From: Rhodopirellula islandica
GTDB taxonomy: Bacteria; Planctomycetota; Planctomycetia; Pirellulales; Pirellulaceae
Direction of reading: 5' to 3'
DNA length: 64,000 nt
NCBI RefSeq assembly: GCF_001027925.1
Contig: NZ_LECT01000031.1
Location: forward strand, 62,001-126,000
The notes below the pieces were generated by a model. It was not told where the DNA came from and made no database searches. It worked only from the letters and a program-made list of their open reading frames with translations. Below, one piece after another: positions 2,735-40,191 of this stretch. Every line of letters starts with the position of its first letter. The stretch's first letter is position 1. The translations under genes and the position numbers were made by a program.

Positions 2735-2768
2735 TCTGAGCGCCAATGCTCACAGAATGATTCTCAGG

Positions 2769-2801
2769 AAGCGGCGAGCCAGGCTCGCCGCTTCTTTTTT
2801 T
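2769..2801 (+). terminator. Strong intrinsic terminator after sulfatase
   Basis: AAGCGGCGAGCC (2769-2780) is the exact reverse complement of GGCTCGCCGCTT (2782-2793), followed by a run of Ts to 2801. In practice a 10-bp GC-rich stem with a five-base loop. It lies 34 bases after the sulfatase stop codon. Confidence 0.85.
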
Positions 2802-2916
2802 GTGCCCTTGAGGAAGCTGCCGATCGGTGCCGAGCGAAGGATTCTGTCGTGGTGAGATTCGCGATCAAGCGTGAATTGACCCCCGTCCCCTTTTGTGAGT
2901 CCGTCCCCTTTTGGAG

Positions 2917-2979
2917 GTCCCGCCCCAACGGGGCAGCCCTATGCCAGCCCAGGGCAACGCCCTGGGTTGTGGCGGGACC
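2917..2979. repeat. Palindromic repeat, family C
   Basis: An outer pair GGTCCCGCC (2917-2925) / GGCGGGACC (2971-2979) encloses an inner pair CCCAGGGC (2948-2955) / GCCCTGGG (2959-2966). I recognise this type of sequence from Rhodopirellula genomes, where its six-frame translations produce spurious proteins with the string PGQRPGLWR. Open frames crossing it should not be annotated as genes. Confidence 0.65.
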
Positions 2980-3011
2980 AAGATTACAAAGCCCAAACGG
3001 GGGCGGTCCTA

Positions 3012-3136
3012 AGCAGGTCAGCAGGAATGATCGGGCATCATCATGTGAGCCGTTTGGGCGTTAGCCCCGGTTATACGTGGGAGCAACGGCGATTACCGAA
3101 ACAGCCCAAATGCCGAAAGACTCCTGCCGATTTGCC
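3012..3136 (-). repeat. 125-bp TA-flanked palindromic element, family B copy 1
   Basis: It begins AGCAGGTCAGCAGG and ends with the degenerate complement CCTGCCGATTTGCC; TA lies directly outside both ends (3010-3011 and 3137-3138). Inside is the family core, reading GTGAGCCGTTTGGGCG on the plus strand. Read on the minus strand it aligns over at least its first 61 bases without gaps to copy B3. It carries no protein. It sits with repeats C and D in the 624-bp gap between two convergent sulfatase genes. Confidence 0.8.
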
Positions 3137-3140
3137 TAGA

Positions 3141-3310
3141 ACCTCTCCCAAAACGAAGTTTTGGGAGAGGTCGAGCGACGCCGTTCAGGCGTGCGTGAGG
3201 GAGGGGGCCGGGCATGGGAAGCGGCTCGCACTCCCCCTTCCCCGAAAAACTCGCTGAATGCTCGTTTTTCGATCCCTCCTAACTTCGTCAGGCGGGGTTC
3301 GCAAGATGCT
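3141..3310. repeat. Hairpin repeat block, family D
   Basis: It opens with a perfect 14-bp inverted repeat, ACCTCTCCCAAAAC (3141-3154) and GTTTTGGGAGAGGT (3158-3171), around GAA. It continues through about 140 bases of GC-rich sequence ending near AACTTCGTCAGGCGGGG. Its borders are approximate. I have seen similar blocks in Rhodopirellula intergenic DNA. The frames read through it are not believable proteins. Confidence 0.5.
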
Positions 3311-3358
3311 GCTGGCATAGCATTGAAAGACTGCACGACCTCTTTGAGAGGCCGGAGG

Positions 3359-4768
3359 CTACTCAGCGTGTTGGGGCGGTGGAGCGGGGGAGGAGTCCGA
3401 CACGTTTTGGAAGATGTTGCTCAAACGCTGGTTCGCAGCGGACGCTTCGGATGGTTGATTCGATGACGCGTCGGTGGGTTGCTCTTTGGGAAGCTCGCTT
3501 GCGTCAATCAGCTTGTCCAAGTGATTGGACCAACGCCAGCGACCGTCAAACACATTGACGTCTGACCGGATGCCGTGAATCACCCAGTCACGTTTGGGGC
3601 CGACGCGGCCATGGAACTGAGACGCGATGCTATGACCGTCGATTGAAATGGAGTCTGGGACGTTGTGCCCTGCTAGCTCGCAAAACGTCGGGAACAAATC
3701 AACGACGTCGACCAGATCGTCGCAAACCGAGTCGACTGGAACTGGATCGGGGCCCCAAACGATCAGTGGAACGTGGGTGCCCGCATCATTGAGTTCATAC
3801 TTTCCACCGTTGACTCGACCTGCCTGGGTGTGCCGTGTGTGCGGGCGTTCGTTCGGTTGACCGGCTTTCGGATTCCGAAAGTCTCGTTGGTGGGTTCCGT
3901 TGTCACCCATGAAGATCACGTAGGTGTTTTTGCGAATGCCAAGGTCCTCGGCTGCATCCAGGACTCGCCCCGCCAGTTTGTCCAAGTAGGTGATCATGTT
4001 GCCGAGCGATGCGGATCGTCCCGCCGATCGGTCGTCAGGAGTTTCGACGATCGGATCGTGCGGGAGCATTTCGTTGTGGACGATCAGGAACGGCGTGTTG
4101 GCTTCCGTCGCTTCCCGCATTTGATCGACGACGTAGTCCACCAAGACGTCGGGACCAAATCGCTCGGCAACATCTTCGCGAACCCGTCCATCGTGATTTA
4201 AGGTTGGGTTCCAGTGCCGAACCGTCTTGGCTCCGTCTTTCCAGATTTGCCAGACGCACCAGGAATCGAAACCACTGTCACGGATGTGATTGGGATGCTT
4301 CTCCAACGTCGCAAGCTGCCATTTGCCGGTCACAGATGTGGAGTAACCCGCGGACCTCAACTGCTGTGCAAAGGTTGGCAGTTTCTGAAAGTCAACCAAT
4401 TTGTTCGTCCCCAGATGAACCGGCAACACATCGGTTTGTCGATGCCGCATCACATACAGACCCGTGTGCAGACTGACCCGTGATGGTGTGCAAACTGGAC
4501 TGGTGTACGCACGCGTGAATCGCAGGCCTTCCGCAGCCATGCGATCCAGTCGCGGCGTTTGAAAGTCAAGGCCACCGTAGCAACCGAGCGTTTCGTAGCC
4601 GAGGTCGTCCGCAAAGATCATCACGATGTTCGGGCGAGCATCGATCAACGCCGCCGTTTCCGACCGAACGGTGTGCTGGCATTGAAACGCCATCACAAGA
4701 GGCACAATTACTCTCCACCACCAAAGAGAGCATGGGAATCGACGGGCGCAAGAGATCGAACGCATCAT
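3359..4768 (-). CDS. Exported sulfatase
   Basis: From the ATG at 4768 the protein has 469 residues and starts with a cationic, Trp/Val-rich signal or anchor segment (about 1-36). A TTG at 4807 would add 13 residues. The core follows: RPNIVMIFADDLG, then CTPSR with the formylglycine cysteine at about residue 93, and FMGDNGTH for the metal site. The C-terminal 40 residues are Ser/Pro/Gln rich and probably disordered. It should be an exported sulfate-ester hydrolase of unknown substrate. It converges with the sulfatase at 1184 but differs clearly in sequence, so the pair is not a recent duplication. The 3' end abuts the repeat cluster. Confidence 0.92.
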   Translation of the reverse strand: MMRSISCARRFPCSLWWWRVIVPLVMAFQCQHTVRSETAALIDARPNIVMIFADDLGYETLGCYGGLDFQTPRLDRMAAEGLRFTRAYTSPVCTPSRVSLHTGLYVMRHRQTDVLPVHLGTNKLVDFQKLPTFAQQLRSAGYSTSVTGKWQLATLEKHPNHIRDSGFDSWCVWQIWKDGAKTVRHWNPTLNHDGRVREDVAERFGPDVLVDYVVDQMREATEANTPFLIVHNEMLPHDPIVETPDDRSAGRSASLGNMITYLDKLAGRVLDAAEDLGIRKNTYVIFMGDNGTHQRDFRNPKAGQPNERPHTRHTQAGRVNGGKYELNDAGTHVPLIVWGPDPVPVDSVCDDLVDVVDLFPTFCELAGHNVPDSISIDGHSIASQFHGRVGPKRDWVIHGIRSDVNVFDGRWRWSNHLDKLIDASELPKEQPTDASSNQPSEASAANQRLSNIFQNVSDSSPAPPPQHAE

Positions 4769-4930
4769 ACCGGGGCGAATCAAAACGAGGAAATGAAGAA
4801 CAGTCAAAGCACAGGCGAACCTGCGAGCAGTTTAACGACACGACTCAAACAGGGGATCGATGAAGTGAGACGGGAGATGGACGTTTGAAGCCCGCATTCC
4901 TTTCCATGGATCGGCCCCGTGGATCTGCGA

Positions 4931-5055
4931 AGCAGGTCGGCAGGAGTCTGTGGGGATTGGAACTGTTTTGGTAAGCGTTGTTGCTCCCACGTACAACCGG
5001 GGCCAACGCCCAAACGGCTCACATGGTTCTGCTCGATCGTTCCTGCTGACCTGCT
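4931..5055 (+). repeat. 125-bp palindromic element, family B copy 2
   Basis: It starts AGCAGGTCGGCAGGAG and ends CCTGCTGACCTGCT, an imperfect terminal inverted repeat. The core reads GCCCAAACGGCTCACATG, in the same orientation as B3. Unlike the other copies it lacks clear flanking TA (left flank GA, right flank CA). It lies in the divergent gap between the sulfatase at 3359-4768 and the hydrolase at 5232, so it could influence their promoters. Confidence 0.75.
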
Positions 5056-5231
5056 CAACGGAGCCTGCAAACCAAGAGTCCGGTCTGTCCCCCTGGCAGC
5101 CTTTCGACTCGATGAGATCTGGAGCGACGCCGGAGAGAAGCGTGGGGGGCACCGCCATGGTATGTTGCCAGTTTTGTCCAGGTTTCCGAGCAATCCACTC
5201 AATCTTCATCCGTCAAAGGGCCCCTCTCGCT

Positions 5232-6626
5232 ATGCGATTGATCCATGTCTTTCTCCTGCCACCGATCGCTGTGCTGCTCGCCTTCACCGCAGTCGCGTCC
5301 GCCGAGGAGTCGCCGTATGACGTCTATCCCGCTGTTGAACCGCCGTATTTCCGAGTGCGTTACGAGGCGTCGTCGGAGAAGGGCGAACTGAATTTCCCGG
5401 TCAAGTACACGGTTTGGATTCCGCCGAACGCGGCGACTTTGCGTGGCGTGATCGTTCATCAACATGGTTGTGGCGAAGGGTCCTGCAAATCAGGGCTCAC
5501 CGGCGCATTCGATCTTCATTGGGAGGCACTCGCGAGCAAACATGACTGCGCGTTGTTGGCACCAGCTTACGAACAACCACAGGCTGCTGACTGCCAACTG
5601 TGGTGCGATCCACGCAACGGATCGGACGCCGCTTTCCAGAAGTCACTCACGGATCTCGGCAAAGCCTCCGGTCATCCGGAGCTCGACACGATCCCGTGGA
5701 CGCTTTGGGGGCACAGCGGCGGCGGAGTCTGGGCGGGGACAATGACGTTGCTGCACCCGGATCGCGTCGCGGCCGCTTGGCTGCGTTCGGGCGTGCCGAT
5801 TCTGGATCCCATTCCCGAGCGGCCATCTGCCAAGACGGTCTTGGTTCCCGAGACCCCGCTCGACGTCCCGATCATGTTGAATCTCGGTACGAAGGAGGGC
5901 GTTACCGTGACGGAGGGGCGCTTCTCCGGTCTCTGGCCAAAGATGAAAGCACTGTTCCACTCGTTGCGTGCCAAAGGCGGCCTGATCGGTGTCGCGGTGG
6001 ATCCGCTCACCAGCCACGAGTGCGGCAACCAGCGCTACCTTGCCATTCCGTGGTTCGACGTCTGCTTGAGTGCGCGGTTGCCAGAACGAATCAACCAACC
6101 GCTGAAACCCATGCCCACGAACGAAGCTTGGCTCGCTCCGTTGCTCGAGACAGAAGCTTTCCCGTCAGCAGAGTGGAAGGGCGATCCGATGGATGCCATT
6201 TGGTTGCCCAACGAAGCAATCGCGATGGCTTGGATGCAGTACGTGAAAGACACCGCGATTGAGGACACGACACCTCCGCCCTCCCCAACCAATTTGCGAG
6301 TGGCCGACGGCGAACTGAGTTGGGACGCCGAAGTTGATTTCGAAAGCGGACTCGCTCACTTCATCATCGAACGCGATGGCAAGGAAATCGCGACCGTTCC
6401 AACGACGGCGAGGAACCCTTTCGGGCGAGCTCTCTTTCAAGGCCTGCAATACAGTGACACACCCCTGCAACCACTCGCCGAGATGCGTTTCACGGACAAG
6501 ACCGCCAGGCAAGGCGAAAACCATTCCTATCGCGTGATCGCCGTGAATACGCTCGGCCTGAAGTCGACCGACGATCCTGCGCGGGTTGCTCCCTCCACGA
6601 CCGCCCCAGGCGAACGGAGGCAATGA
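5232..6626 (+). CDS. Exported alpha/beta hydrolase with C-terminal Fn3-like domain
   Basis: The ATG at 5232 gives 464 residues with a clear signal peptide (1-24, ending AVASA). An in-frame extension to 4950 only translates repeat B2 and is rejected. Residues 50-330 form an alpha/beta-hydrolase domain: an early [10 protein letters not shown] segment and the nucleophile motif GHSGGG with Ser162. Residues about 375-455 ([16 protein letters not shown] onward, ending [10 protein letters not shown]) resemble a fibronectin type III domain. It is probably a periplasmic esterase or peptidase-like enzyme; the substrate is not evident. It ends 213 bases from a convergent gene, with repeat block E between. 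Confidence 0.8.
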
Positions 6627-6716
6627 TCCTGGACGGTGCGATTCACCTTTCGGATTAGATGATGGCCGAGATCTGCTGGGCTGCTCGTTCCTAGGCGGTC
6701 AAGGTTGTTGCCAGCT

Positions 6717-6827
6717 CGTTCCCAGGCTCCGGCCTGGGAACGCGGTGCCTTGCAGGCTCTGCCTGTCGGTTGGGTGATCGTGAGGCGGGAGCCTCAGACG
6801 CAGTGTGTGCCCAGGCGGGAGCCTGGG
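6717..6827. repeat. Block of tandem short hairpins, family E
   Basis: Three hairpins stand in a row: CGTTCCCAGGC/GCCTGGGAACG (6717-6742), TGAGGC/GCCTCA (6781-6796) and CCCAGGC/GCCTGGG (6810-6827), the last two with GGGA loops. A weaker TGCAGGC/GCCTG pair lies near 6751. The CCAGGC-GCCTGG type is a familiar bacterial intergenic repeat. It fills most of the gap between convergent genes. Confidence 0.65.
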
Positions 6828-6839
6828 TACAAGGGTGGG

Positions 6840-7244
6840 CTACCTTGGGGGGGCGAGTCCTGCGAGAGCTTTCATGGCATCTTGAGCACGATCGGAGGGG
6901 ACAAAGACGTGATCGTGAAAGAATGCCGCCATCACATTGGCGCTGATCCCTCGATCAGAAAGAGCCTTGGCGATGGCGGCCGTCAGCCCCACTGCCTCGA
7001 GACTGGAATGCACTTGCAGCGTGATCATTCGAAAGACGGCTTGGTACTGTTCTCCCGCGACGTCCGCTTGTTCCCTTCGCAGCACCAGCGTCAAACCCTC
7101 CTGCTCTTCGAACGCGGCGATGGGGTGCAGGTCAGCGGCGTCAGCGATGCATTTTCCAGGTTGGGTCACGAATACAAATTCATGTTCGGACATCAGGGGA
7201 TGCAAAGAGCCAAGCAGGGTTGGCAAGTCGGTGATCCCAGTCAT
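6840..7244 (-). CDS. ACT-domain protein (COG3602/ACT_7-like)
   Basis: The chosen ATG at 7244 follows a strong GGAGGG ribosome site about six bases upstream and gives 134 residues. An in-frame extension up to 7628 exists but its translation is featureless. The protein has two ACT-like halves: EFVFVTQPG to about residue 65, and a second with FRMITLQVHSSLEAVGLTAAIAKALSDRGISANVMAAFFHDHVFVP, split here only for length considerations of the motif: the key features are the beta-strand VHSSLEAVGL and the ligand-loop SDRGISANV. ACT domains bind amino acids or similar small ligands; no catalytic domain is attached. Role unknown, probably cytosolic ligand sensing. Confidence 0.78.
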   Translation of the reverse strand: MTGITDLPTLLGSLHPLMSEHEFVFVTQPGKCIADAADLHPIAAFEEQEGLTLVLRREQADVAGEQYQAVFRMITLQVHSSLEAVGLTAAIAKALSDRGISANVMAAFFHDHVFVPSDRAQDAMKALAGLAPPR

Positions 7245-7700
7245 AGACGTTCCCTCCAGGATGGTTTCGTTCAATGTCGCTGAGGCGTTGAACCCCTCGG
7301 TGTTCGCAGCGAACACGCCGAGCGAGGATAGCAAGGGATCGTTTGGAACGGGACCTAAGGACAAGGTGGAGGGGGAGTCTTGGCACCCTGCTTTGGTTTG
7401 TTCGTTGGTCATTGCAGGACCAAAACCCCTGGATGCATGGGGCAGATCATTTGCCACTATTCGCGTCCACTGGAAATCTGAAACAAATGGAGCTTGAAAA
7501 AGTTCGGAAGGAGAAATGGACGGGAGCGTTTCGTTTACTCTCTTGTGGTCCCCCTTTGTTGACCTGCTATCTCCCCGCCACACTTCCCCTGCGTCGCCTC
7601 TTGGCGAAACTGCGATCGGATTTTGCACAACCGCGTTGTGGTTGATGATCTGTGTCCGGTCAAGAAATCGTCACGCGACAACCACTGAAGAGCAAAATTG
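7245..7700. other. Divergent gap, no supported gene
   Basis: This 456-base stretch separates the ACT protein (minus) from the S9 peptidase (plus). Open frames continue into it from the ACT gene but read as composition-poor sequence with no homologous look. It should hold two divergent promoters. I see no repeat element and no clear operator. Confidence 0.5.
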
Positions 7701-9821
7701 ATGCACCCATGTCTGAAGGTTGTCACTCAGTTGTCGGTCGCGGCATTCGCGTTCTCATTGAACATGAATGCCGCACTGGCTCAATCGGCCGTCTCGCAAT
7801 CGATCAGCCCGGCCGAGTTGCTCGAAAGGTCTCGGCCTCGATTGGAAGGCATCTACGCCAAAGGTGAGATGCGTCCCAAGCGTTTCGAGGCAAACTGGTT
7901 GGGAGACAGCACGGGTTTTGTGATTCCCGAGAAGGACGCCGATTCCGGAGAATCCGTCCGAGCCATCTACAGCGTGGAGTCAGGGGAACGCACGGTTGCA
8001 TCGCCGGATGTCGAGATCGCCGAGCGTGATCCCTTGCTGTCACCCGATGGACGCAGTCTGCTGAAGAAGCAGCGTCGAAGCTGGGTGATTCGCGACCTGG
8101 GAAGCGGGGAGTCACGTCCTTTGTTGGAACCATCCAAGTCCGGTGACATCTCCTATCAAGATCCGAGCTGGAGCCCTGATGGCAAGCGAATTCTTTTCGT
8201 CGAAGCCAACTCCAATGATGTCCAATTTCGCAATGTCCTCGTTCCGGATGACCCTTCTTATCCCAGTGTCAGCAAAACACGTTTCGCTCGCGTCGGAACC
8301 AAAATTCCAGAGTTGAGAGTGGGCGTGGTCAGTGTGGACGGCGATGACGCTGGTTCAGTGACCTGGTTGCCAATTGCCTTCCCTGAGGAAGGTGGCTACT
8401 TCGGTGAAGTTTCATGGGCAGGGAACTCGGACGAAGTTCTGGTCGAGCGACTCAGTCGTTTCCGTGACAAACGCGAGTTTCTATTGGCCAAAGTGGACGG
8501 GTCGGTGTCCACCCTTTTTGAAGAAACCAATGACGCGTGGGCGGTTGGAAGCCACGGGATCAACTCGGGCATCACGTGGCTTGATGGAGGCAAACGGTTC
8601 CTCTTCCTGAGTGAAAAGGACGGTTGGCGGCAGGCCTTCACGATCGCACGCGACGGAACAGACATTCAGATTCTGACACCGGGTGAGTACGACATCATCG
8701 ATCGTGCGGAACCGGGCGATGTCGTCGACGAAGCAAACGGTTGGTACTACTTCTATGCGTCGCCTGAAAACGGCACGCAACGGTATCTGCACCGTGTTCC
8801 TCTGGATGGATCAGGAACGCTTGAAAAGATCACGCCGGGGGACCAGCCTGGATGGCATGAGTATCAGTTTTCGCCGGATCGCAAATGGGCTTTTCATACC
8901 TATTCAACCGTGAACACGCCTCCGGTGGTTGAGTTGGTTTCGATTCCAGAACATCGCTCGATCCGGATCCTGGAAGACAACCAAGAACTGCAGAAGCTTG
9001 CCCAAAAGACAATCACGCGAGCCACCGAATTCGTCCAGTTGAAGCTGTCTGAGGATGTGACCGTTGATGCGAGTGTGACCAAACCCAGTGACTTTGATGA
9101 GTCGAAACGTTACCCGGTGTTTGTCTATGTCTATGGCGAGCCCTATCTCCAGACAGTGCTCGATCGTTGGGGAGCCGCTCAAATCGATTTTCTCCGCACG
9201 ATTGCGGACCTGGGGTACATCACTGTATCGATCGACAATCGCGGGACGCCTTGCCCCAAAGGCGCAGCGTGGCGACGAAGCATCTTCGGTAGCTTGGGAC
9301 CACTCTCGACCGAAGAACAAGCTGCCGCGATTCAGGAACTGGGACGCACGCGATCGTATGTGGATCTGTCGCGGGTCGGGATCTGGGGTTGGAGTGGCGG
9401 TGGTTCGAACACACTGAACGCATTGTTTCGAAAACCCGATGTTTATCATCTCGGGATCGCTGTCGTGCCCAAGCCACAACCGCATCTCTACAACGCTTGG
9501 TTCCAAGAGATCTACATGCGGACTCCGGAAGTCAACGCCGACGGATACGCTCGTTCGGCTCCCTTGGGATTTGCAGACGGGTTGAAGGGCAAGTTGCTGA
9601 TTGTCACAGGATCAGGCGAAACCAACACGCACATTCAGATCATCGAAGGTTTGGTCGATCGGTTGATCGAACTGGGCAAGCCTTTTGATTACATGGTCTA
9701 CCCCAACCGAGACCATGGGCTGCGTGAAGGCAAAGGTTCTGAAGTGCATGTCCGAATGTTGATCACGCGGTACTTGCTCGAGAACCTGACACCCGGGCCG
9801 ATGCCGGTGGAATCGAACTAG
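7701..9821 (+). CDS. Exported S9-family prolyl oligopeptidase / DPP IV-like peptidase
   Basis: A 706-residue protein with an N-terminal signal peptide (about 1-28, ending AALAQ). I use the ATG at 7701 rather than the TTG just before it. Residues about 50-440 have the repeating pattern of a DPP IV-type beta-propeller (LLSPDGRSL, DPSWSPDGKRI, FSPDRKWAFH). Residues 450-700 are the alpha/beta-hydrolase domain with nucleophile Ser565 in GWSGGG and His672 in NRDHG. Where DPP IV relatives have the catalytic Asp (the ADDNVH segment), this protein reads GETNTH, with Glu640 and Thr641, so the acid is altered. Its stop codon TAG is formed by TA plus the first base of repeat A1. Confidence 0.88.
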   Translation: MHPCLKVVTQLSVAAFAFSLNMNAALAQSAVSQSISPAELLERSRPRLEGIYAKGEMRPKRFEANWLGDSTGFVIPEKDADSGESVRAIYSVESGERTVASPDVEIAERDPLLSPDGRSLLKKQRRSWVIRDLGSGESRPLLEPSKSGDISYQDPSWSPDGKRILFVEANSNDVQFRNVLVPDDPSYPSVSKTRFARVGTKIPELRVGVVSVDGDDAGSVTWLPIAFPEEGGYFGEVSWAGNSDEVLVERLSRFRDKREFLLAKVDGSVSTLFEETNDAWAVGSHGINSGITWLDGGKRFLFLSEKDGWRQAFTIARDGTDIQILTPGEYDIIDRAEPGDVVDEANGWYYFYASPENGTQRYLHRVPLDGSGTLEKITPGDQPGWHEYQFSPDRKWAFHTYSTVNTPPVVELVSIPEHRSIRILEDNQELQKLAQKTITRATEFVQLKLSEDVTVDASVTKPSDFDESKRYPVFVYVYGEPYLQTVLDRWGAAQIDFLRTIADLGYITVSIDNRGTPCPKGAAWRRSIFGSLGPLSTEEQAAAIQELGRTRSYVDLSRVGIWGWSGGGSNTLNALFRKPDVYHLGIAVVPKPQPHLYNAWFQEIYMRTPEVNADGYARSAPLGFADGLKGKLLIVTGSGETNTHIQIIEGLVDRLIELGKPFDYMVYPNRDHGLREGKGSEVHVRMLITRYLLENLTPGPMPVESN

Positions 9822-9945
9822 TGGTCTGTCACAGCTAAAAGTGAGGGGTGATCGTAGTGGACGAGGCCACGAGTCCTTGGATTTGACGCCAGTTCAGGAC
9901 TCGTGGCCTCGTCCACTACCCTAAAAACAAGTCCTGACAGACCAC
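9821..9945 (+). repeat. 125-bp palindromic element, family A copy 1
   Basis: Terminal inverted repeats are GTGGTCTGTCA on the left and TGACAGACCAC on the right. An inner stem of about 24 bp (GTAGTGGACGAGGCCACGAG and its complement) encloses a loop with GGATTTGACGCCAGTT. TA precedes the left end and supplies, with the element's first G, the stop codon of the peptidase gene. The right flank is GA rather than TA. No coding capacity. It lies between convergent genes. Confidence 0.85.
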
Positions 9946-10026
9946 GAGGCCGGTAGGTTTAGGTCTCTTCGAGTGGGAACTGTTCGGCGTTCGCCACGGT
10001 TCCCGCTCTCACCCGGGAAAGTTTGG

Positions 10027-11781
10027 CTACGGTTTTGATCCTGTTTCGTAGTGGAACCAGTCGATGTCGACCCAACCGCTTTCGGAAACGTCGTCGGTTC
10101 GGTTGTTCCAACAGAACACACCGGGACGATTGCCACGCCAGTTCCCGAAGTTCAGCGTGTAGTTCCAAGGCGTTGTGATCCAGGACTCTCCATCGAGACT
10201 CCACGCGAAGTCCGCTTCATCACCATCGGTCGTGCTTCGTAGATAGAGATCTGTGCCAGGGACCGTTGGCCCGGTGTCCAACTTGCCGTTGTGGTTGAAG
10301 AAGAGCTGCGTCGTGCCATCCTTTTGCCTCTGAACGCCGAACAAAGCATAGCGGCCGGAATGGTGACAGAAACCAGCCCGTGTGCCCCAGGTCATGCCGC
10401 GTAAATCCAGCTTGGTCGTGGCGGTCGTTTTAGCGACGCCGAGATGGCGCTGGGAAAGCGTGTTGGACGCTCCCCAGAACGCTCCTTTCAGTCGGCCGCG
10501 ATCCACCGTGACGGGTTGGGAGGCGTGCAGACGCAAATAGCCCGGCCGAGCTGAAAGTGAAAACCGTTCGCGACGTGGTTCGTGGTTCCAATTCCATTGC
10601 GGACCGATTTGCTGGCCATCGAATTCATCGGATGTCTGAAGCGGACGAGCGTGCTCGCTTGGGATGGGCTTGTTGTGAACCCAAACGGGCTCGCCGATCC
10701 CATCACCGTCGATGTCCTCGCCAATGATTGGCCATCCCTCTTTCCAAGTGACGGGTTGCAAACACTGAGGGCGTCCGTGAAAGACGGGTGTTCCGTTTTG
10801 AACGAGCTGATGCATGAACCACCATCTGCCATCCGGGGCTTCGATCAAGGAACCTTGGCAGGCCGATCGATCGGAGTCCGTTTCTCGTTCCATCACCACA
10901 CGCGATTCGTAGGGGCCTTGCAAGGAATCAGTTTGTGATCGAAGACAAAGTTGCTTGCGATCGCGGCTTGCACCTTCGCCTTGCCACTCAATCAGCATGA
11001 TGTACCACTGATTGTCGAAGCGTCGGATCTTGGCGGCTTCGACGGCGGTTCCTGAGAAGATGGTCGTGCCTTCGTCGAGCAATTCAGAACCATCCCAGGA
11101 CAGGCGGAAGAGTTTGATCTCATGGGGTTGGTCCGGACGCGGCGGGGATCCTTTGCCCCAATTGCAAACCAACCAGGCCTCCTGTTTTTCGTTGTCAAAG
11201 TAAACCGCGGGATCGGTCCAGTGCTTTCGCTTGAGGAGACAGACGGGCTCCGTCCAAGGACCGGCAAGGTCATTGGCTCGGGTCAGGTAGAGGCCTGATT
11301 GAAAATCGATTTGGTAGCACAGCCATTCACCGTTGTGTTGGACCAGATCGCCAGCCCAGCACCCGAACCGGTAACCGTTCATTTGGTCCCAGTTGTATGA
11401 CGGTTCCCAAGTGATTGTGGGGATGGCATGCCCGGTGTACTGCCAATTCACCAGATCTTTCGATTCCAAGAGGGTCATCCCAGGCGAGTAGTGATTCGTC
11501 GACGTGATCATGACCCAGCGATCATTGGCTTCATCGCGTTCGACGTCGCTGTCCGCAAAATCGCCATTGAGAATCGGGTTGGCATAAGTTCCGTTGCCCA
11601 GGTCACCCCACTGACGAAAACGTGCGTCGATGGATGATTCGGTCTGTTCGAGCATCGCTGTCACGGGCGGCGGACTGTTCGGGGAATCAGCAGATGCGAC
11701 CGATGAAAACGCCAGGGTGACGAGCAGAGGGAGACGGAATGATCGTGCGAACAGATCCAAAAAGTCGGAGTTCATTTTCAT
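10027..11781 (-). CDS. Exported GH43-like glycoside hydrolase
   Basis: The ATG at 11781 gives 584 residues with a signal peptide (about 1-32). Upstream in-frame codons exist but precede no signal. Residues 65-370 carry five-bladed-propeller glycosidase features: NPILNGDFADSDV, with Asp77 the likely catalytic base, and TAVEAAKI, with Glu248 the likely acid. Tryptophan-rich substrate loops lie between them. Residues 395-580 form a second beta-rich domain (DEFDGQQIGPQWNWNH onward) like the concanavalin-type module often attached to GH43 enzymes. Expected activity is on arabinan, xylan or related side chains; exact specificity is unknown. Likely periplasmic or secreted. Confidence 0.88.
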   Translation of the reverse strand: MKMNSDFLDLFARSFRLPLLVTLAFSSVASADSPNSPPPVTAMLEQTESSIDARFRQWGDLGNGTYANPILNGDFADSDVERDEANDRWVMITSTNHYSPGMTLLESKDLVNWQYTGHAIPTITWEPSYNWDQMNGYRFGCWAGDLVQHNGEWLCYQIDFQSGLYLTRANDLAGPWTEPVCLLKRKHWTDPAVYFDNEKQEAWLVCNWGKGSPPRPDQPHEIKLFRLSWDGSELLDEGTTIFSGTAVEAAKIRRFDNQWYIMLIEWQGEGASRDRKQLCLRSQTDSLQGPYESRVVMERETDSDRSACQGSLIEAPDGRWWFMHQLVQNGTPVFHGRPQCLQPVTWKEGWPIIGEDIDGDGIGEPVWVHNKPIPSEHARPLQTSDEFDGQQIGPQWNWNHEPRRERFSLSARPGYLRLHASQPVTVDRGRLKGAFWGASNTLSQRHLGVAKTTATTKLDLRGMTWGTRAGFCHHSGRYALFGVQRQKDGTTQLFFNHNGKLDTGPTVPGTDLYLRSTTDGDEADFAWSLDGESWITTPWNYTLNFGNWRGNRPGVFCWNNRTDDVSESGWVDIDWFHYETGSKP

Positions 11782-11828
11782 GATCAACAGGTTGCAGCAA
11801 TGAGGTGGGGAGGTGAAAGGCGGGAGCT

Positions 11829-12275
11829 TCAAGTGCGATTGGAAGTGTCGACAAGGGAGAAACGCTTGGTGCCGCTGACGAAGATTCCGCACGCGATGAA
11901 TGCACCGACGAGTGCCCCGAGAAGAATGATGCCAATTCCTTGAACGTTGGGCCCAGCCAAAAGAAACAATCCCATGGGAGGAAAACAGATGGCGATCAAC
12001 GAGTAGAGCATCTGACGGGAACGCACACTTGGATCATGAGGCCAATTCCGAGAACGAATCCGGAAGATCAGCCCACCGACGACGCACCCAATCAAAAGTG
12101 TGGCGAGCCCAATTGCAGGAACGTGAGTCAGCAAGGGAACGGATGCAAACGCACCAGCCACTGCGGAGAAAATGATGTACCACGCCGGTCCCCTTCGGAA
12201 TTCTGAATTCACACCGTGACTCAGTGGACGCACTGTTTCGGTTTCCGTCGGTGGTGCGTAAGGGTTGTCAGTCAC
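11829..12275 (-). CDS. Small integral membrane protein of unknown function
   Basis: A 148-residue protein opening MTDNPYAPPTE, an N-terminal pattern I associate with planctomycete membrane proteins. Four hydrophobic segments follow at about 33-50, 54-75, 88-107 and 111-132, with a short polar C-terminus. No enzymatic motif is visible. It lies 47 bases upstream of the GH43 gene on the same strand and may be cotranscribed with it, though nothing links their functions. Confidence 0.8.
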   Translation of the reverse strand: MTDNPYAPPTETETVRPLSHGVNSEFRRGPAWYIIFSAVAGAFASVPLLTHVPAIGLATLLIGCVVGGLIFRIRSRNWPHDPSVRSRQMLYSLIAICFPPMGLFLLAGPNVQGIGIILLGALVGAFIACGIFVSGTKRFSLVDTSNRT

Positions 12276-12429
12276 AGTGGCTCAGATTGACTATCAAAAC
12301 TCGAACAAAGGCGGTTTGCAAGATCGTTGCTGGCGGACTCTGTTGGATCCCGGAAGCGGAATGACGCTCCGCGGTGGAAGGCTGACTCCGTTCGCATGCT
12401 TGGCAGAAGTCTAGTGAATTTGGTTGGTA

Positions 12430-12681
12430 AGCAGGTCGTTAGTGGTCTGTTACAGCTAATCGTGCGGGGTGATCGTAGTGGACGAGGCGACGAGTCCTTG
12501 GATTTGACGCCAGTTCAGGACTCGTCGCCTCGTCCACGACCCTAAGAATAAGTCGTGACAGACCACTATGAGTCTTTCGGCTTCTAAATTGGTTTGGCAA
12601 GCGTCGTTGCTCCCACGTACAACCGGGGCTAACGCCCAAACGGCTCACATGATTATGCCCGATCATTCCTGCCGACCTGCT
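12430..12681 (+). repeat. Family B copy 3, interrupted by an A element
   Basis: The left end AGCAGGTCG starts at 12430 and the right end CCTGCCGACCTGCT finishes at 12681, with TA outside both ends (12428-12429, 12682-12683). Between them sits a complete A element (12442-12566) flanked by TA on each side. Removing the A element and one TA leaves exactly 125 bases. The left 61 of these align without gaps to the minus strand of B1 (shared GAGTCTTTCGGC and GTTGCTCCCACG at the same spacing). Confidence 0.85.
12442..12566 (+). mobile_element. 125-bp palindromic element, family A copy 2, nested in B3
   Basis: Terminal repeats GTGGTCTGTTACAGC and GTCGTGACAGACCAC, with TA at 12440-12441 and 12567-12568, consistent with a duplicated TA target. 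The stem reads GACGAGGCGACGAG where A1 reads GACGAGGCCACGAG, and the opposite arm changes to match. Too short to encode a transposase, so it would need one in trans. The nesting is the best direct evidence of mobility in the window. Confidence 0.8.
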
Positions 12682-12718
12682 TAGCAGATGCAACTCGTCT
12701 TCCGGCTTTTGTCCTTCT

Positions 12719-12777
12719 TCATCCCGGGAGGGATGTCAGACGGTAGCCGATGGTCGCTGCAACGCAGCGCACCACCG
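12719..12777. repeat. Short palindromic repeat, family F
   Basis: Starts near TCATCCCGGGAGGGATG (itself palindromic, CATCCC/GGGATG) and continues through GACGGTAGCCGATGG to a GCTGC-AAC-GCAGC-type hairpin ending CACCACCGG. I recognise the GTCAGACGGTAGCC type of sequence from Rhodopirellula intergenic regions. Borders are approximate. Confidence 0.5.
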
Positions 12778-12787
12778 GAAACTTCCA

Positions 12788-12973
12788 TCACCCCTGGCCA
12801 GCGCTGATGGAACGCGACGTGACGATGGCAGGAAAACCGACGAAGATCAGTACGGCGACGGCGGCGATCACTCCGAAGAGGATCGAGAGCATCGCGACGG
12901 TGCTGATCAAGGATTCAAGTGCCAGGCTTTTGGTTTGGCGGCGTTTGGGAATCGAATGAGCAGTGAGTTCCAT
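12788..12973 (-). CDS. Possible small single-pass membrane protein
   Basis: From the ATG at 12973 the frame gives 61 residues: a polar, positively charged start (MELTAHSIPKRRQTK), then one long hydrophobic stretch at about residues 23-50, then a short tail. It lies 97 bases after the DUF5722 gene on the same strand. There is no good ribosome site. The charge pattern is that of a real membrane peptide, but the gene is short and its end lies close to repeat F, so I hold it as tentative. Confidence 0.45.
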   Translation of the reverse strand: MELTAHSIPKRRQTKSLALESLISTVAMLSILFGVIAAVAVLIFVGFPAIVTSRSISAGQG

Positions 12974-13070
12974 GATCGGCTACCAGGGAGATGGAAGGGG
13001 ATGGATCTGTTGTTGGACGCGACGAATTGGTGCCACTGCCCATCTCCGGATGGTGCAGTCATGGTGTCGT

Positions 13071-15251
13071 TCATTGTTTCCAATGAGATTCGTAGTGGGT
13101 GCGGAGGTTCGATTCGGTTGAGGTTCCGATCGACTTGTAAGCATCCCAGGCTGGTTTGGGGGCACCGCGTGGTTGCTCGGGCGAACCGAGTCCACGCAGT
13201 CCCAAGTGCAGGCCACCTTCGGCACGGGAGTCCACGGGGCGATGGTAGTCGAATGCAAGAATGGACTTGCACTTGCGAATTTGTTCAAAGGTGTAGAACA
13301 CCGCGGCGGCTTGTTGTTCTAACGCTTGTGGATCAGTCTCGGACGCGTGGAAGCCTTGCTCGCTGAGCAACACCGCACGCACCTTGCCCTCGGGATCTCG
13401 CAAACGTTCGGTGTGCAACCAGTCGTCCAGCACCTGCCAGTTCTTGAGCGTGAACATGCTGGCATCGAGTGTGAATTCAACGTTGTCGTTCCAGGTGTCG
13501 GATTCCCACAGGCTTTCGGGGTAGGGATGATGAGCCAATCCCCACGGGAAGTTGCCTTCGACTTCACCGTGTCGAACGAGCGCCTGCATGATGTCTTTGG
13601 ACGCGTACCAACGCCAATGCGGAGGATCTTCCAGGTTCCAATGATGCGTCAACGAAATGAACGTGCGAGCGTGAGGATTGACCCGTCGAGTTGCGGCGTC
13701 GACCATCCGCATGGAGCGAAAGTAGTGGTCGAGATAGACGTGCATGGGAACCTCGCCCATGTTGGTCCATTGCCAACCGGCGTCGATTTCATTGTGGACG
13801 ATCCAGTGATCGATTCGGAGGTTGCCTTCGCTGTAGCGTTCAGCGAGGAAGTCCAGCGTGTCGGCGTACAGTTGGGCGGACGCTTCGTCGACCAAGTTCG
13901 GCATCGTGTACGTGCCAGCGGGGTCGGCATTGGGATGTTCCAAGCTGGGCAAGTCATCGGTCGACTTGGTTCGCGAATTGGGAATCAGCAGAATGGCCGC
14001 CATCACCAAACCAGCGTCGCGTCCCTTTTGCACACGGTGATCGAGGTGCCGCATGGCGGCTTGGTTGACGTATCGTTCTCGCCCGCGGACCTGCGTGGCC
14101 TGAAACCCGCGACGTGGTGTCGGTGAAACCAAATGGCTCAAGACCAGATTGACCGAACCGTGAGCCAGTCCGAGTTCCTCGACATGTTCCGGTGCGAGCT
14201 CGGCAAGGCAGGTCATGCCTTTGGCGGCACGCAGCTTTGGTGTTGGAGAAAGCTCTTTGGCCTCGGCCGCATCGTAGCGATCGACGTGATGCACGGCGGA
14301 AAACGGCGTTGCGGATCGATTGCCTTCGGGGTCCAGTTGGCTCGAAATTGAAACGACTTGCCATCGAACGCCCGTGTCACGCAGCTTCGATTCTTGGTCG
14401 GCCGGGATGCGGACGATGAAGGTTCCGTCTGCGTCAATCCGGACGGGGCGAAAGAAGGTTTTCGAGTTCACCTTGGCCGGAACCGCGGAAATTTCGGTCA
14501 ACCCGCGCGCGATCAAACTGAGGTTGGCCGTTGAGAGTTGGCCGACCGCTTTTCCCGCGACGAGGATCGCGTCGGCAGTGTGTTCCACCCGCGTGATTTC
14601 AAGCGGGAATTGCGTCTGATAGTACGAGGCGATCTGTTCGTCCAGTCGTTCCAATCGCTTGACTCGTTCCTGTTGTTCCTGGTTTTGTCGTCTCTCGAAA
14701 TCGTTTTCGAGACGCAGAACAACATTTCGGATTCGAAACCGCTTGTTGGCTTCGGTTCCGAAATCGAGTCGCAGCCAAAGCGGTTGGTCTTCTCGCAGAA
14801 ACTGTTGGCCCAGGGACAGGTCGCAGGTGTACGTCGTCCAGCCTTCCGCGCGATTCAAATGCGGCAGGTCGACGCGGCGTTTTTCTGTCCATGGTTGTCC
14901 GTAGAACAGTTGCATGTTTCGGATGCCCTGCGGGCAAAACACTTCCATCGCCAGAATCCAACGTCGTTCGTTCGCGGGTGTCGGCGGGATCTGAAAGGCA
15001 ATGAATGGATCGTTGCCAGTGGTTCGGAACGCGATCGCGTCTTCCGCCGGTTCCATTTTCAAGTGCTTGAGTTGCGTCTGTTCACTGGAAAGCTGGATCG
15101 ATCGCGGCGCGATGGTGGAGGGGGATTGAGCGGTCGCGAGCGAATTGAAAAGGGGGATCAAAGCTAAGATCGCGAGAACCGGCAGAACGTCCCGCGCGGA
15201 GGGCGTGAAACAAGTGCGTCGGAGAGCAAACCAATCGGAAAACAGATTCAT
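13071..15251 (-). CDS. Exported DUF5722 family protein, probable glycoside hydrolase
   Basis: A 726-residue protein with an N-terminal signal segment (about 1-42, ending ATAQS). Residues 45-190 look like a beta-sandwich, carbohydrate-binding type region; a short charged helix follows (FERRQNQEQQERVKRLERL). Residues 330-715 match the DUF5722 pattern. HNEIDAGWQW places Glu488 after a beta-strand and LLSEQGFH places Glu631, as expected for the acid and nucleophile of a (beta/alpha)8 clan-A glycosidase. That assignment is my inference; activity in this family is not something I can state. It is divergent from the porin gene, which fits an uptake and degradation locus. Confidence 0.82.
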   Translation of the reverse strand: MNLFSDWFALRRTCFTPSARDVLPVLAILALIPLFNSLATAQSPSTIAPRSIQLSSEQTQLKHLKMEPAEDAIAFRTTGNDPFIAFQIPPTPANERRWILAMEVFCPQGIRNMQLFYGQPWTEKRRVDLPHLNRAEGWTTYTCDLSLGQQFLREDQPLWLRLDFGTEANKRFRIRNVVLRLENDFERRQNQEQQERVKRLERLDEQIASYYQTQFPLEITRVEHTADAILVAGKAVGQLSTANLSLIARGLTEISAVPAKVNSKTFFRPVRIDADGTFIVRIPADQESKLRDTGVRWQVVSISSQLDPEGNRSATPFSAVHHVDRYDAAEAKELSPTPKLRAAKGMTCLAELAPEHVEELGLAHGSVNLVLSHLVSPTPRRGFQATQVRGRERYVNQAAMRHLDHRVQKGRDAGLVMAAILLIPNSRTKSTDDLPSLEHPNADPAGTYTMPNLVDEASAQLYADTLDFLAERYSEGNLRIDHWIVHNEIDAGWQWTNMGEVPMHVYLDHYFRSMRMVDAATRRVNPHARTFISLTHHWNLEDPPHWRWYASKDIMQALVRHGEVEGNFPWGLAHHPYPESLWESDTWNDNVEFTLDASMFTLKNWQVLDDWLHTERLRDPEGKVRAVLLSEQGFHASETDPQALEQQAAAVFYTFEQIRKCKSILAFDYHRPVDSRAEGGLHLGLRGLGSPEQPRGAPKPAWDAYKSIGTSTESNLRTHYESHWKQ

Positions 15252-15484
15252 TCGAAGGGGGGTTGTTTGGTGGGGAGGGGGCTCAGCGACGAAGGAGGGG
15301 GAGGCCGCCAGCGGGGAGTTGCATTTGGTCCGATTGTAACGGTTCGCCGCGTCGGTCTACATCCGCTTGGTAGACGTGTCGATTTTGATCATCGGAGCGA
15401 TACGAAGGATCAATTCTTGTGGGCCGGTCATCCGGGACGCAAGGCTTGCATCACAAGGAATGACTTCCAAACAAAGGCGGATGG

Positions 15485-16996
15485 ATGACTGGGCGAGCAA
15501 TCGGGAAACGACTTCGAACGCGGCAAACAGAATTCCGCGGAATCAGTCTGCGAATGGTGATGATCACGTGGACACTGGTTGGTCTTCAGACGACGGTGAC
15601 CAACGCCCAGGAACCCCTGATTTTGGGAAGCGGAATTGTCTCGCAGTCACCCGTTGAGGTTCCACTGGGGCAGACAGTGTCGGAGGAGTCGATTGCGGGA
15701 AACGCTGACAAACGTTCGGATGACGTGTCACAGGAGTTGGCACGCTTGCAGGCCCAGATCGATGAACTGAAGCAAGCGTCGAAGATTTCGCAGGAGCCGG
15801 TTTTTGTTTTTGCGGAGGAGTCTCCTGCAACTTCTTGCACTCCCCCTGCGTCGAGCAAGTATCCCACCGCGCGGCTGACCGGATTCTTCCAAGCCGATAC
15901 CGCTTGGTTCCATCAAAGCGAGCGAAACATTGCAGCGGTGGGGGATGCGGAAGATGGCTCCGACTTTCGGCGAGCTCGTTTGGCCGCGGTTGGGAACGTT
16001 TGGGACAACGTTGCCTACTCGCTTGAGATGGACTTCGGATTTCCCGGACGCCCGAGCTTCATGGACGTGTGGGTCGACTTGGAGGATGTGGTTGGGGATG
16101 GCAATCTGCGAGTCGGCCAGTTTCGACAACCGATCGGAATGGAAGGATTGACCAGCGTCAAAGAGCTCACGTTCATGGAACGCTCGCTGCCATTTGCGTT
16201 GATCCCGTTTCGTCAGGTGGGAGCAGTTCTTTACGGTACATCGTCGGACGAGTTGATGACTTGGGCCGTTAGCGGTTTTCGCTTTCCGACGGATGTTTAC
16301 GGCGGCAGCGTCGGCGAGAACGGTGGCTATGGAACAGCCGCCCGTTTGACTGGGTTGCTGGTGGATCGTGAACCGGGCAACGTTCGCTTCCACGTTGGAG
16401 GTGCCTACAGTTTCATAGATCCTTCGAACGATCTGTTTCAATACCGCAGCCAGCCCGAAGTGTTTGTCAGCGAAACCGGTGGCGGAGTGCCCGCGGCGGT
16501 GGCTGTGAACACACCGTTCTTCGTTGACACGGGGATCATCGACGCGGAGCACACCCATCTGTTTGGAGCGGAACTCGCGGCTTCGGCGGGTTCGTTCTAT
16601 GCCCAGTCGGAGTATCTGGTCAGCGTGGTGGATCAGATTGGCGAGCCGACGGTCGCACTGCCGGGTGCCTACGCGTACGCAGGCTACTTCTTGACCGGTG
16701 AACAGCGTTCGTATGACAAGAAGAACGGAGTCTTCGGCGATGTCATTCCCAATGGCAGCGTCGGCAAAGACGGCGGCATCGGGGCATGGGAATTGGCCGT
16801 TCGGTATTCCTATCTCGACTTCAACGATGCGAATGTGCAAGGCGGACGGTTGAGCGACATCACCGCAGGAGTGAATTGGCACTGGAACCCACACACCAAG
16901 TTCCAACTGAACTACATCCATGCGATGTTGGACAGTCCGGTTAATGGCGACAGCGACGCGAGCATCTTTGCAATGCGAGCCCACCTGGATTTCTAA
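15485..16996 (+). CDS. Phosphate-selective porin O/P-type outer membrane porin
   Basis: A 503-residue protein. The ATG at 15485 precedes a long basic leader; the alternative ATG at 15554 gives a more usual signal peptide (MVMITWTLVGLQ to TNAQ), so the true start is open. Residues about 75-100 form a short coiled coil (DVSQELARLQAQIDELKQ), typical of the periplasmic trimerising segment in OprP-like porins. Beta-barrel sequence follows (LTGFFQADTAWFHQ, FRRARLAAVGNV) to a terminal phenylalanine in MRAHLDF. It should form an outer membrane channel; ion specificity is not readable. The stop codon TAA is TA plus the first A of repeat B4. Confidence 0.88.
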   Translation: MTGRAIGKRLRTRQTEFRGISLRMVMITWTLVGLQTTVTNAQEPLILGSGIVSQSPVEVPLGQTVSEESIAGNADKRSDDVSQELARLQAQIDELKQASKISQEPVFVFAEESPATSCTPPASSKYPTARLTGFFQADTAWFHQSERNIAAVGDAEDGSDFRRARLAAVGNVWDNVAYSLEMDFGFPGRPSFMDVWVDLEDVVGDGNLRVGQFRQPIGMEGLTSVKELTFMERSLPFALIPFRQVGAVLYGTSSDELMTWAVSGFRFPTDVYGGSVGENGGYGTAARLTGLLVDREPGNVRFHVGGAYSFIDPSNDLFQYRSQPEVFVSETGGGVPAAVAVNTPFFVDTGIIDAEHTHLFGAELAASAGSFYAQSEYLVSVVDQIGEPTVALPGAYAYAGYFLTGEQRSYDKKNGVFGDVIPNGSVGKDGGIGAWELAVRYSYLDFNDANVQGGRLSDITAGVNWHWNPHTKFQLNYIHAMLDSPVNGDSDASIFAMRAHLDF

Positions 16997-17119
16997 GCAG
17001 GTACGCAGGTGTCATCGGGTATGTGAGCCGTTTGGCGTTAGCCACGGTTCCCACGCAAAACCGGGGCTAACGCCCAAACGGCTCACAAGGCGAAACTCAA
17101 TCATTCCTGCGTACCTGCT
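16996..17119 (+). repeat. Palindromic element, family B copy 4 (124 bp)
   Basis: Perfect 14-bp terminal inverted repeats AGCAGGTACGCAGG / CCTGCGTACCTGCT, with TA directly outside both ends (16994-16995 and 17120-17121). Inside, a second near-perfect pair GTGAGCCGTTTGGCGTTAGCC-type / GGCTAACGCCCAAACGG makes this copy more symmetrical than B1-B3. It lies between the convergent porin and nadB genes, and its left TA is part of the porin stop codon. Confidence 0.85.
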
Positions 17120-17168
17120 TAGAGTGAGGTAGCGGGACTGAGAGAGAACCAATTCAAGTCGGCATATT

Positions 17169-18851
17169 TCAATCGGCGGTCGAGTTTGCTTGCGTCGATT
17201 CGCGTGTGATCACGGGCGAGGTCATCGGTTCGCCTTTTTGGGGCATGCCACCGTCCACATCGACTTGCACGCTGAGGTGGCAACGCCAGTTCTCGTCATC
17301 GGGTTCGGGGAAGTCGCTGCGGAGATGAACGCCACGTGACTCGGTCCGTGCCAGTGCCGAGGATGCCATGCAGTGGGCGGTCAGCAACAAGTTTTGGAGT
17401 TCCCAGCCTTCCACTTTGTCGAATTGATGCCGCATCACGTAAGCCGCAAGCGATCGGATTTGGCTGTCGGCCTGCCGCAACCCTTCGGCGTCGCGTTGTA
17501 CACCGACCAACCGGCCCATCAGGCTTTTTAGGGAGACGCGAACGTCGGCGATGTCGAACGATTCACTGAGTGTGTGGTCGGCATGTTGAATGCGACGGGC
17601 GACCATCTTGTGCGGCCCTTCCGCGGCCGATCGACTGGCCGCTTCTCCGGCGTGTGCCCCGTAGACCAACCCTTCCAGCAAACTGTTGCTGGCGAGACGG
17701 TTGGCACCGTGCAAACCGGAGCTGGTGGCTTCGCCTGCGGCCCACAATCCAGGCAGACTGGTTCGCCCCAGCATGTCGACTCGAACGCCACCAATCATGT
17801 AGTGAGCGCCAGGGCGAACGGGGATGCGGTCGGTCGCGATGTCCAAGCCAAACTTGCCACAAGTTTCCGCGATGCCGGGAAAACGAGTGCGAACGTGTTC
17901 CGCGTTGAGATGCGACAGGTCCAAGTACACGCAGGGGTGCGCGGTTTCGTTCATTTGGTTGACGATCGATTGGCTGACCACATCCCGCGGTGCCAGTTCG
18001 CCGCGAGAGTCGTAGTCGGGCATGAATCGATGTCCGGTCGCGTCTCGCAAGTACGCCCCATCGCCACGCAGGGCCTCGGTGATCAGCGACCGCGAGGAAC
18101 CAGCGATGTAGAGGACCGTCGGGTGAAATTGAATGAATTCCATGTCCCGCAATTGGACACCGGCCCGGTAAGCCAATGAGGTGCCATCCCCGGTGGCGAC
18201 GGGCGGGTTGGTCGATTCCCGGTAGACTTGGCCGACGCCGCCGGTGCAAAGAATTGTTTCCTTGGCCCAGACCATTGTGGGACGACCGTCGGGGGTGACC
18301 ACGATCGCTCCGTGGCAGCGACCTTCTTGGCTGAGCAAATCGACGGTGAACGCGTTTTCCCAAATGTCGATGTTGGCGGCTTCCCGCGAACGAGCGATCA
18401 CGGCCCGCATGACTTCGCGGCCGGTCGCGTCGCCCATCGCGTGGACGATGCGTTCGTGGCTGTGGCCGCCTTCCCGGCCAAGAGCCAATTCACCTTCGCG
18501 TTTGTCGAACTGGGTGCCCCAGTGAATCAGTTCTTCGATTCGGCGGGGCCCCTCGTGGATGACACGCGCCACCACAGCGGGATCGCAAAGGTTTCCACCC
18601 GCGATCAGCGTGTCTCGGATATGATCATCAAAGCAATCTTCGGGATCCAAGACCCCGGCGATGCCGCCTTGAGCGTAGTTGCTGTTGGATTCTCGCAGTT
18701 CGTCTTTGGTGACGACCAAAACGGAAAGGTTCGGTTCCACCGCGTTGGCTGCCCGCAGGCCTGCCAAACCACCTCCGATGACCAACACATCTGTGAAACG
18801 ATGAAGGGCTCTTCGCGAATCAAAAGGCAAAAGATACCGGGGAGTGATCAT
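17169..18851 (-). CDS. nadB: L-aspartate oxidase
   Basis: A 560-residue flavoprotein that oxidises L-aspartate to iminoaspartate, the first step of quinolinate and NAD synthesis. The FAD-binding motif VIGGGLAGLRAA lies at 24-35, and the family signatures SNSNYAQGGIAG, GREGGHSHERIVHA and GELAPRDVVSQ are all present. The C-terminal helical domain (from about residue 430) is complete. No signal peptide, so cytosolic. Length fits the family. It is divergent from psd with only 123 bases between. No nadA or nadC is visible in the window. Confidence 0.95.
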   Translation of the reverse strand: MITPRYLLPFDSRRALHRFTDVLVIGGGLAGLRAANAVEPNLSVLVVTKDELRESNSNYAQGGIAGVLDPEDCFDDHIRDTLIAGGNLCDPAVVARVIHEGPRRIEELIHWGTQFDKREGELALGREGGHSHERIVHAMGDATGREVMRAVIARSREAANIDIWENAFTVDLLSQEGRCHGAIVVTPDGRPTMVWAKETILCTGGVGQVYRESTNPPVATGDGTSLAYRAGVQLRDMEFIQFHPTVLYIAGSSRSLITEALRGDGAYLRDATGHRFMPDYDSRGELAPRDVVSQSIVNQMNETAHPCVYLDLSHLNAEHVRTRFPGIAETCGKFGLDIATDRIPVRPGAHYMIGGVRVDMLGRTSLPGLWAAGEATSSGLHGANRLASNSLLEGLVYGAHAGEAASRSAAEGPHKMVARRIQHADHTLSESFDIADVRVSLKSLMGRLVGVQRDAEGLRQADSQIRSLAAYVMRHQFDKVEGWELQNLLLTAHCMASSALARTESRGVHLRSDFPEPDDENWRCHLSVQVDVDGGMPQKGEPMTSPVITRESTQANSTAD

Positions 18852-39900: not shown

Positions 39901-40067
39901 TCAACCAACACGGGGGGACGATTCAGGTGGATTCCTCGCCTGGGCAAGGCGCGTGCTTCACGATCCTGCTTCCAATTGAAGTGGAGACAAAACCGGTGAT
40001 CGGCGACCTGAGTGAGAGTTCAGGTGGGCTGAGTGTCGCAGTTGGAGCGTCTCAGTTCCAATCCTAG
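36975..40067 (+). CDS. CHASE/PAS multi-domain sensor histidine kinase
   Basis: A 1030-residue membrane kinase. One helix at about 5-23, a periplasmic CHASE-type sensor domain (about 55-300, FGYLAVVP to the YRLFIQEG region), then a second helix at about 312-340. Three PAS domains follow at about 355-475 ([16 protein letters not shown]), 485-605 and 615-735. The transmitter has [14 protein letters not shown] with the phospho-acceptor His near residue 751, and ATP-binding motifs [16 protein letters not shown] and [13 protein letters not shown]. There is no receiver domain. It pairs with the response regulator upstream. Its stop codon TAG is TA plus the first base of repeat A3. Confidence 0.93.
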
Positions 40068-40191
40068 TGGTCTGCCACGACTTCTTCTTAGGGTGGTGGA
40101 CGAAGCGACGAGTCCTGAACTGGCGTCAAATTCAAGGACTCGTCGCCTCGCCCACCACGATCAACCCTCACTTTTAGCTGTGACAAACCAC
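40067..40191 (-). repeat. 125-bp palindromic element, family A copy 3 (inverted)
   Basis: Same length as A1 and A2 but in the opposite orientation: the plus strand starts GTGGTCTGCCACGAC and ends GCTGTGACAAACCAC. The long stem is kept, with paired changes (GTGGTGGACG here facing CCCACCAC where A1 has GTAGTGGACG facing CCACTAC). TA precedes its left end and completes the kinase stop codon; the right flank is CA. It lies between convergent genes. Confidence 0.85.

Follow-up and report, generated by a model that had tools for sequence, protein, structure and literature searches.

In the window analysed here, i.e. a stretch of 64,000 nucleotides from a contig of Rhodopirellula islandica, one short repeated element (A2) lies inside another (B3), and the locus raises the question of how the first came to interrupt the second. 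We conclude that A2 is very probably a non-autonomous MITE of the IS630/Tc1-mariner type, which an IS630-type transposase placed at a TA within an older B-type MITE, that TA being duplicated in the process. This reading draws on the anatomy of the insertion, the multi-copy nature of both families, the TA flanks in CTAG context, the two-base empty sites of other copies and the existence of IS630 transposons with matching ends.

The preliminary description of this DNA had placed A2 within B3 with TA at both of its borders; its coordinates proved exact to the base and both TAs are present (Table 1). As TA makes up 1.06 % of the dinucleotides of the window, a given element would be bordered by it on both sides by chance with a probability of about 1e-4. 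Removal of A2 together with one TA was said to leave a B element of 125 bases, and this was borne out: the restored B3 (12430-12441 joined to 12569-12681) is 125 nt long, as are 33 of the 42 full B copies, and aligns without gaps to the closest of these 42 with 90.4 % identity. With both TAs kept, B3 would measure 127 nt, a length seen in 0/42 B copies; with both removed, it would measure 123 nt and reach at best 68 % identity with the three copies of that length. The site is located between the listed reading frames, and a search of Rfam at gathering scores gave no match in positions 2000-18000 of the window.

Two features of the target count against a simple insertion account. At the insertion point B3 reads GTTATG and the B consensus GGCAGG, so that the TA used by A2 is absent from the consensus and three substitutions are clustered at the target. 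It also follows that A2 was inserted at TTAT (T at -3 and T at +3) and not at the CTAG usual for family A, for which such a target is atypical.

Table 1. Elements of families A and B and associated TA dinucleotides, in window coordinates.
Feature	Position	Strand	Remarks
MITE B1	3012..3136	-	flanks CTA / TAG
MITE B2	4931..5055	+	flanks CGA / CAA
MITE A1	9821..9945	+	flanks CTA / GAG
TA left of B3	12428..12429	.	
MITE B3, left piece	12430..12441	+	AGCAGGTCG... end; TA target included
Left TA of the A2 target duplication	12440..12441	.	
MITE A2	12442..12566	+	125 nt, GTGGTCTGTTA...TGACAGACCAC; inverted repeats GTGGTCTGT(T/C)A at its ends, hairpin in the centre
Right TA of the A2 target duplication	12567..12568	.	
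MITE B3, right piece	12569..12681	+	end is GACCTGCT
TA right of B3	12682..12683	.	followed by G
MITE B4	16996..17119	+	AGCAGGTACGCAGG subfamily, 124 nt; flanks CTA / TAG
MITE A3	40067..40191	-	flanks CTG / TAG; empty site CTAG in G214

Both families were surveyed in the genome carrying the window (7.43 Mb in 55 contigs, hereafter the own genome). The search with A2 gave 83 matches from the 40 candidates scored of 142, i.e. at least 40 places of nearly full length and 43 shorter matches that mostly represent the hairpin on the opposite strand, and the search with B2 gave at least 40 places from the 40 candidates scored of 321. The stretches retrieved yielded distinct hits, 72 for A and 66 for B, among which 60 A and 42 B copies were near full length with enough flanking sequence and were retained for the flank counts, the remaining hits being omitted. 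Family A is short and without coding capacity, and 55 of its 60 copies are exactly 125 nt long. Strong hairpins were predicted by folding in all three stretches submitted, with z-scores of -7.3 for A2, -3.6 for B2 and -10.1 for the B4 stretch. Families A and B are described here as high-copy MITEs of the IS630 type. Variants of other lengths were also encountered. In R. solitaria, A occurs as a form of 391-392 nt with about 266 additional nucleotides in the hairpin (L382-L385, L387-L389); six copies of 391 nt differ pairwise at 1-5 positions and are flanked by TA, and this long variant is apparently recent. In the relative G214, B end pieces are paired over about 457 bp (e.g. offsets 128683-129139 and 296589-297045 from 4400000), which suggests a longer B variant. 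Separately, a gene for a Y1-type transposase was noted near B-type ends in the own genome at L121 (G000:C16, near 234-575).

The suggestion that A moves as a discrete unit with a TA target was accompanied by the caveat that flanking TA might prove no commoner than chance; the counts did not bear this caveat out. Across the 60 A copies, TA stands at 81 of the 120 borders (40 left, 41 right, both sides in 29), and the dinucleotide is scarce in the window (1.06 % vs 4.6 % expected from composition). Position -3 is C in 55/60 copies and position +3 is G in 51/60, i.e. A insertions are mostly found in CTAG context, yet CTAG is ten times rarer in the whole window than base composition predicts. Of the 42 B copies, 29 carry TA at the left border, 31 at the right and 26 at both, and B junctions are mostly CTAA/TTAG/TTAA. 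Some A elements reside within 7-bp tandem repeats such as AGCTAGA/AGCTAGG, with one CTAG per unit (L112, L113, L020, L108, L353, L358); in L112 and L113, taking out A and one TA restores the period, as read by eye.

Empty sites were sought by comparing the joined flanks of the 102 copies with 1.2 Mb of G214 and 0.4 Mb of the relative G130, the alignment classes being assigned by eye. In G214, 40 alignments spanning the junction were obtained from 18 loci, 12 of which had a single alignment. At 7 of these 12 loci (4 A and 3 B), the occupied site exceeds the empty one by the element plus exactly two bases, as expected of a discrete unit with a TA target: A1_L011, A16_L025 (in an alignment of just 87 nt), A25_L112 (within a heptamer repeat), A59_L024 (A3 of the window), B7, B17 and B26. 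At A12_L007, which is A1 of the window, the corresponding TA of G214 is occupied by a B element; A and B apparently inserted into this target separately. The remaining single-alignment loci were ambiguous (A51) or not clean (A3_L013, A23, B42), and six loci aligned to several places (A45, A55, B0, B6, B25, B37). G130 gave four alignments, none of them clean.

At the A2/B3 locus itself, an empty B3 site was sought in relatives, as the preliminary description had proposed, and was not found: G214, G130 and the relative G210 lack both A2 and B3, and the full empty site is not readable in any of the three. The intergenic DNA at this place is not alignable in G214 and G130. In G210, the left flank of the own genome has a counterpart over window positions 12059-12430 (80.9 %), where the similarity stops, so that it ends one base past the TA of B3; the 5.2-kb locus of G210 holds no A or B match. 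The right side is not alignable in G210 and G130 because both retain an open frame at this place, and similarity to it in the own genome is limited to a short stretch (12780-12823, 93 % to G210). This open frame beside B3 encodes 214-256 aa and is similar in G130 (L183:7949-8593) and G210 (L275:481-1251); most of it has seemingly disappeared from the own genome (window 12682-12823). G130 also has, at a place collinear with A2/B3 (C1 near 1988.6 kb; L183 around 8.5-8.7 kb), the sequence CCTA-AGCACG...GACCTGCT-TAGC with a different hairpin, which looks like another B-type MITE at a putatively orthologous place.

A transposase gene whose ends match those of A had been proposed as a search target in the whole genome, and this was answered in part: an IS630 element with A-type ends was found in R. 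solitaria and one with B-type ends in the own genome, where the A-type transposase gave 0 matches (12 candidates scored). The B-ended element (C44 at 122 kb) is 1189 bp long, bordered by CTA...TAG with ends CTA-AGCACGTCTGCAGGAGT, and its gene matches NF033545 at 1e-40; the two B ends share 22/30 and 23/30 positions with the nearer end of this element. The A-ended element (L255, 1236 bp, CTA/TAG flanks) belongs to G091, which appears to be R. solitaria CA85. The left and right ends of A are identical to its two ends at 25/30 and 24/30 positions, respectively, and 0 of 100,000 shuffles were as good for either. Its reading frames match Pfam HTH_32 and DDE_3, and the transposase gene is interrupted. 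Related elements of 1235 bp were detected in G072 and G006, one G072 copy having two uninterrupted overlapping frames. The searches for a partner of A, which led to L255, gave matches in 14 of 16 genome handles, and in 56 of 241 genomes of the family, the own genome not being among them. An autonomous A candidate in the own genome at C17:216619/218749 was rejected, its two end motifs coming from different MITE copies. An autonomous partner in the same genome is usual for a MITE but is not required. Between the A-type and the B-type transposase there is no more than a remote resemblance (BLASTP E 0.005 over 47 residues), and the two families therefore stem from distinct IS630 subgroups, though both measure about 125 nt. 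With IS630 transposons having matching ends and with the TA duplication, the assignment of A to an IS630/Tc1-mariner-like type, given at first as an inference, is upheld.

Other origins of the nested structure were weighed against this one. The strong hairpins in all three folded stretches, together with 11 Y1_Tnp matches in the own genome, would suit REP-like palindromes spread by Y1/RAYT transposases of the IS200/IS605 type, which transpose without target duplication. The terminal inverted repeats, the TA on both sides, the two-base difference at 7 empty sites and the existence of IS630 elements with the same ends make such an origin of A and B very unlikely; in addition, a motif search with up to 2 mismatches at the 11 Y1 loci recovered B ends in L121 only, with scattered single A-like motifs elsewhere. 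We regard as equally improbable that the CTA...TAG borders belong to the element, i.e. that a unit of up to 131 nt is inserted without any duplication. The conserved C at -3 and G at +3 speak for it, and it is contradicted by the 7 readable empty sites: one CTAG is kept at those of B7, B17 and A3 of the window, the occupied sites exceeding them by only two bases over the element, and A2, with T at both outer positions, nevertheless interrupts B3 with two bases gained beyond the element. Homologous recombination among repeat copies, for which many similar copies are available and which would agree with flank dinucleotides often unequal between the two sides, is in our view the least credible source of the composite, to the point of being negligible. 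B3 stays in register across A2 with exactly one extra TA, and A3 of the window (804 aligned bases) and A51_L068 (841) are collinear in G214 in spite of their unequal flanks.

Transposition of A2 into B3 also orders the two insertions, and the proposal that A came after B is sustained at this site. It does not extend to the families as a whole, since B interrupts A at C7:182274-182504, where a 231-bp pair consists of a B within an A. A lies inside B twice (the A2/B3 site and L098) and B inside A once; A abuts B through one shared TA at L012, L026 and L005, and at C52 an A, a B and a further A copy are clustered within 474 bp. From the mutual nesting and the shared TAs, the two families were probably active in overlapping periods.

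The flanking TA is altered in an excess of copies that goes beyond plain duplication and neutral decay. The 55 A copies measuring exactly 125 nt have 110 sides, 37 of which deviate from TA; a private substitution rate of 1.2 % would predict 2.6, so that deviation is about 14 times more frequent than private mutations would give. Altered sides amount to 20/74 in copies with at most one private substitution and to 17/36 in those with more, and alteration is weakly correlated with age (Spearman 0.19, p 0.16), in the direction of some decay. Over the 60 A copies, altered sides read GA/TC in 26 cases, CA/TG in 12 and TT in 1, a T-to-G/A-to-C bias. Ordinary TA decay between the own genome and G214, counted in 44 aligned blocks, yields 96 GA/TC and 344 CA/TG (p 7e-9 for the difference), and the bias also departs from that of substitutions inside the A element (p 0.003). 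TA is not a fast-evolving dinucleotide, being conserved at 80.5 % between these two genomes, mid-range among dinucleotides; existing CTAG sites are kept in 13/23 and 13/32 cases in aligned DNA. At the terminal base of the element, 11-15 % of the A and B copies show a change, compared with 3-4 % at the next base. In G214, 10 of 58 B sides are altered. Among 19 A copies from other species, TA stands on both sides in 14 and CA on both sides in one, five of the 19 being long R. solitaria copies that are also counted among the eight discussed below.

Several sources of these altered junctions were considered. Insertion with a coupling sequence, as modelled on Tn916, was not supported by the one case available, a B that lies in an A at its consensus CTAA and has TA on neither side, its flanks being GA and TG. 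A duplicated non-TA target was rejected as the main cause in A because the changes match in only 1/8 of the copies altered on both sides. It is possible for some B copies: 8/42 are altered on both sides, above the prediction of independence, with 2/8 matching, and B0 and B6, with GA on both sides, fit such a target; the repeat copies of G214 at these two loci read CTAG once. Matched duplications at non-TA sites are described for Sleeping Beauty in an excerpt of PMC5801840. Selection against new TA or CTAG is another possible source; CTAG avoidance as the sole cause is weakened by B, which has the same per-base rate (0.168 and 0.167) although most of its junctions are CTAA/TTAG/TTAA. Finally, an error-prone junction step at or near insertion (e.g. 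gap filling after strand transfer) might often turn one TA into GA or TC, an idea that we put forward only tentatively and hold to be rather doubtful. In its favour are the excess of altered sides in A, present even in copies with at most one private substitution, the GA/TC bias, the ordinary stability of TA in aligned DNA, the changes at the terminal base, the rarity of matching two-sided changes in A and the flanks of the B within an A just described. It is opposed by the commoner two-sided changes in B, by the greater alteration of older A copies (17/36 sides) and by the young A variant of R. solitaria, which has TA on 15/16 sides in 8 copies, two of them sharing nearly identical flanks and the exception being a copy of 395 nt.

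Families A and B share with IS630 and with ISY100, itself of the IS630/Tc1-mariner type, the TA duplication, the CTAG preference and matching terminal repeats, and the DDE_3 and HTH domains of these transposons recur in the partner element of A. The differences are that A and B are too short for a gene and that the partner of A was not found in the own genome. The CTAG preference of IS630 was reported by Tenzen and Ohtsubo (1991, as cited in an excerpt of PMC2170065); according to the same paper, the cuts of ISY100 fall at its 3' ends and, on the 5' side, two bases into the element, with duplication of TA. By analogy with ISY100 in vitro, A would have moved by cut-and-paste followed by gap repair. 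A transposase of the R. solitaria kind would have acted in trans, the own genome having yielded none, and A may have derived from such an insertion sequence, retaining about 30 bp from either end with an unrelated hairpin between them. Bacterial MITEs, i.e. Correia elements and others, resemble A and B in their length of about 125 nt, terminal repeats, hairpin and high copy number, as far as an excerpt of the review PMC10969869 describes them; a word search of that review found no occurrence of IS630 or Planctomycetes. REP/RAYT palindromes (GTAG and CGTC repeats), as portrayed in part of PMC3733652, are likewise palindromic and multi-copy and have been reported from Planctomycetes. REPs are 20-40 bp long, unlike A and B, which measure about 125 nt and combine terminal repeats with a duplicated TA. 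No description of families A and B was recognised among the matches listed in the open-access literature, judged by title and start of abstract.

At the A2/B3 site, the nesting of two bacterial MITEs can be followed in anatomical detail, and two large repeat families of Rhodopirellula are linked to IS630 subgroups that differ considerably from each other. The findings suggest that A has been left stranded, its transposase being absent from the genome. With many insertions, some having empty sites in relatives, these families could record the accuracy with which the host repairs transposon junctions.
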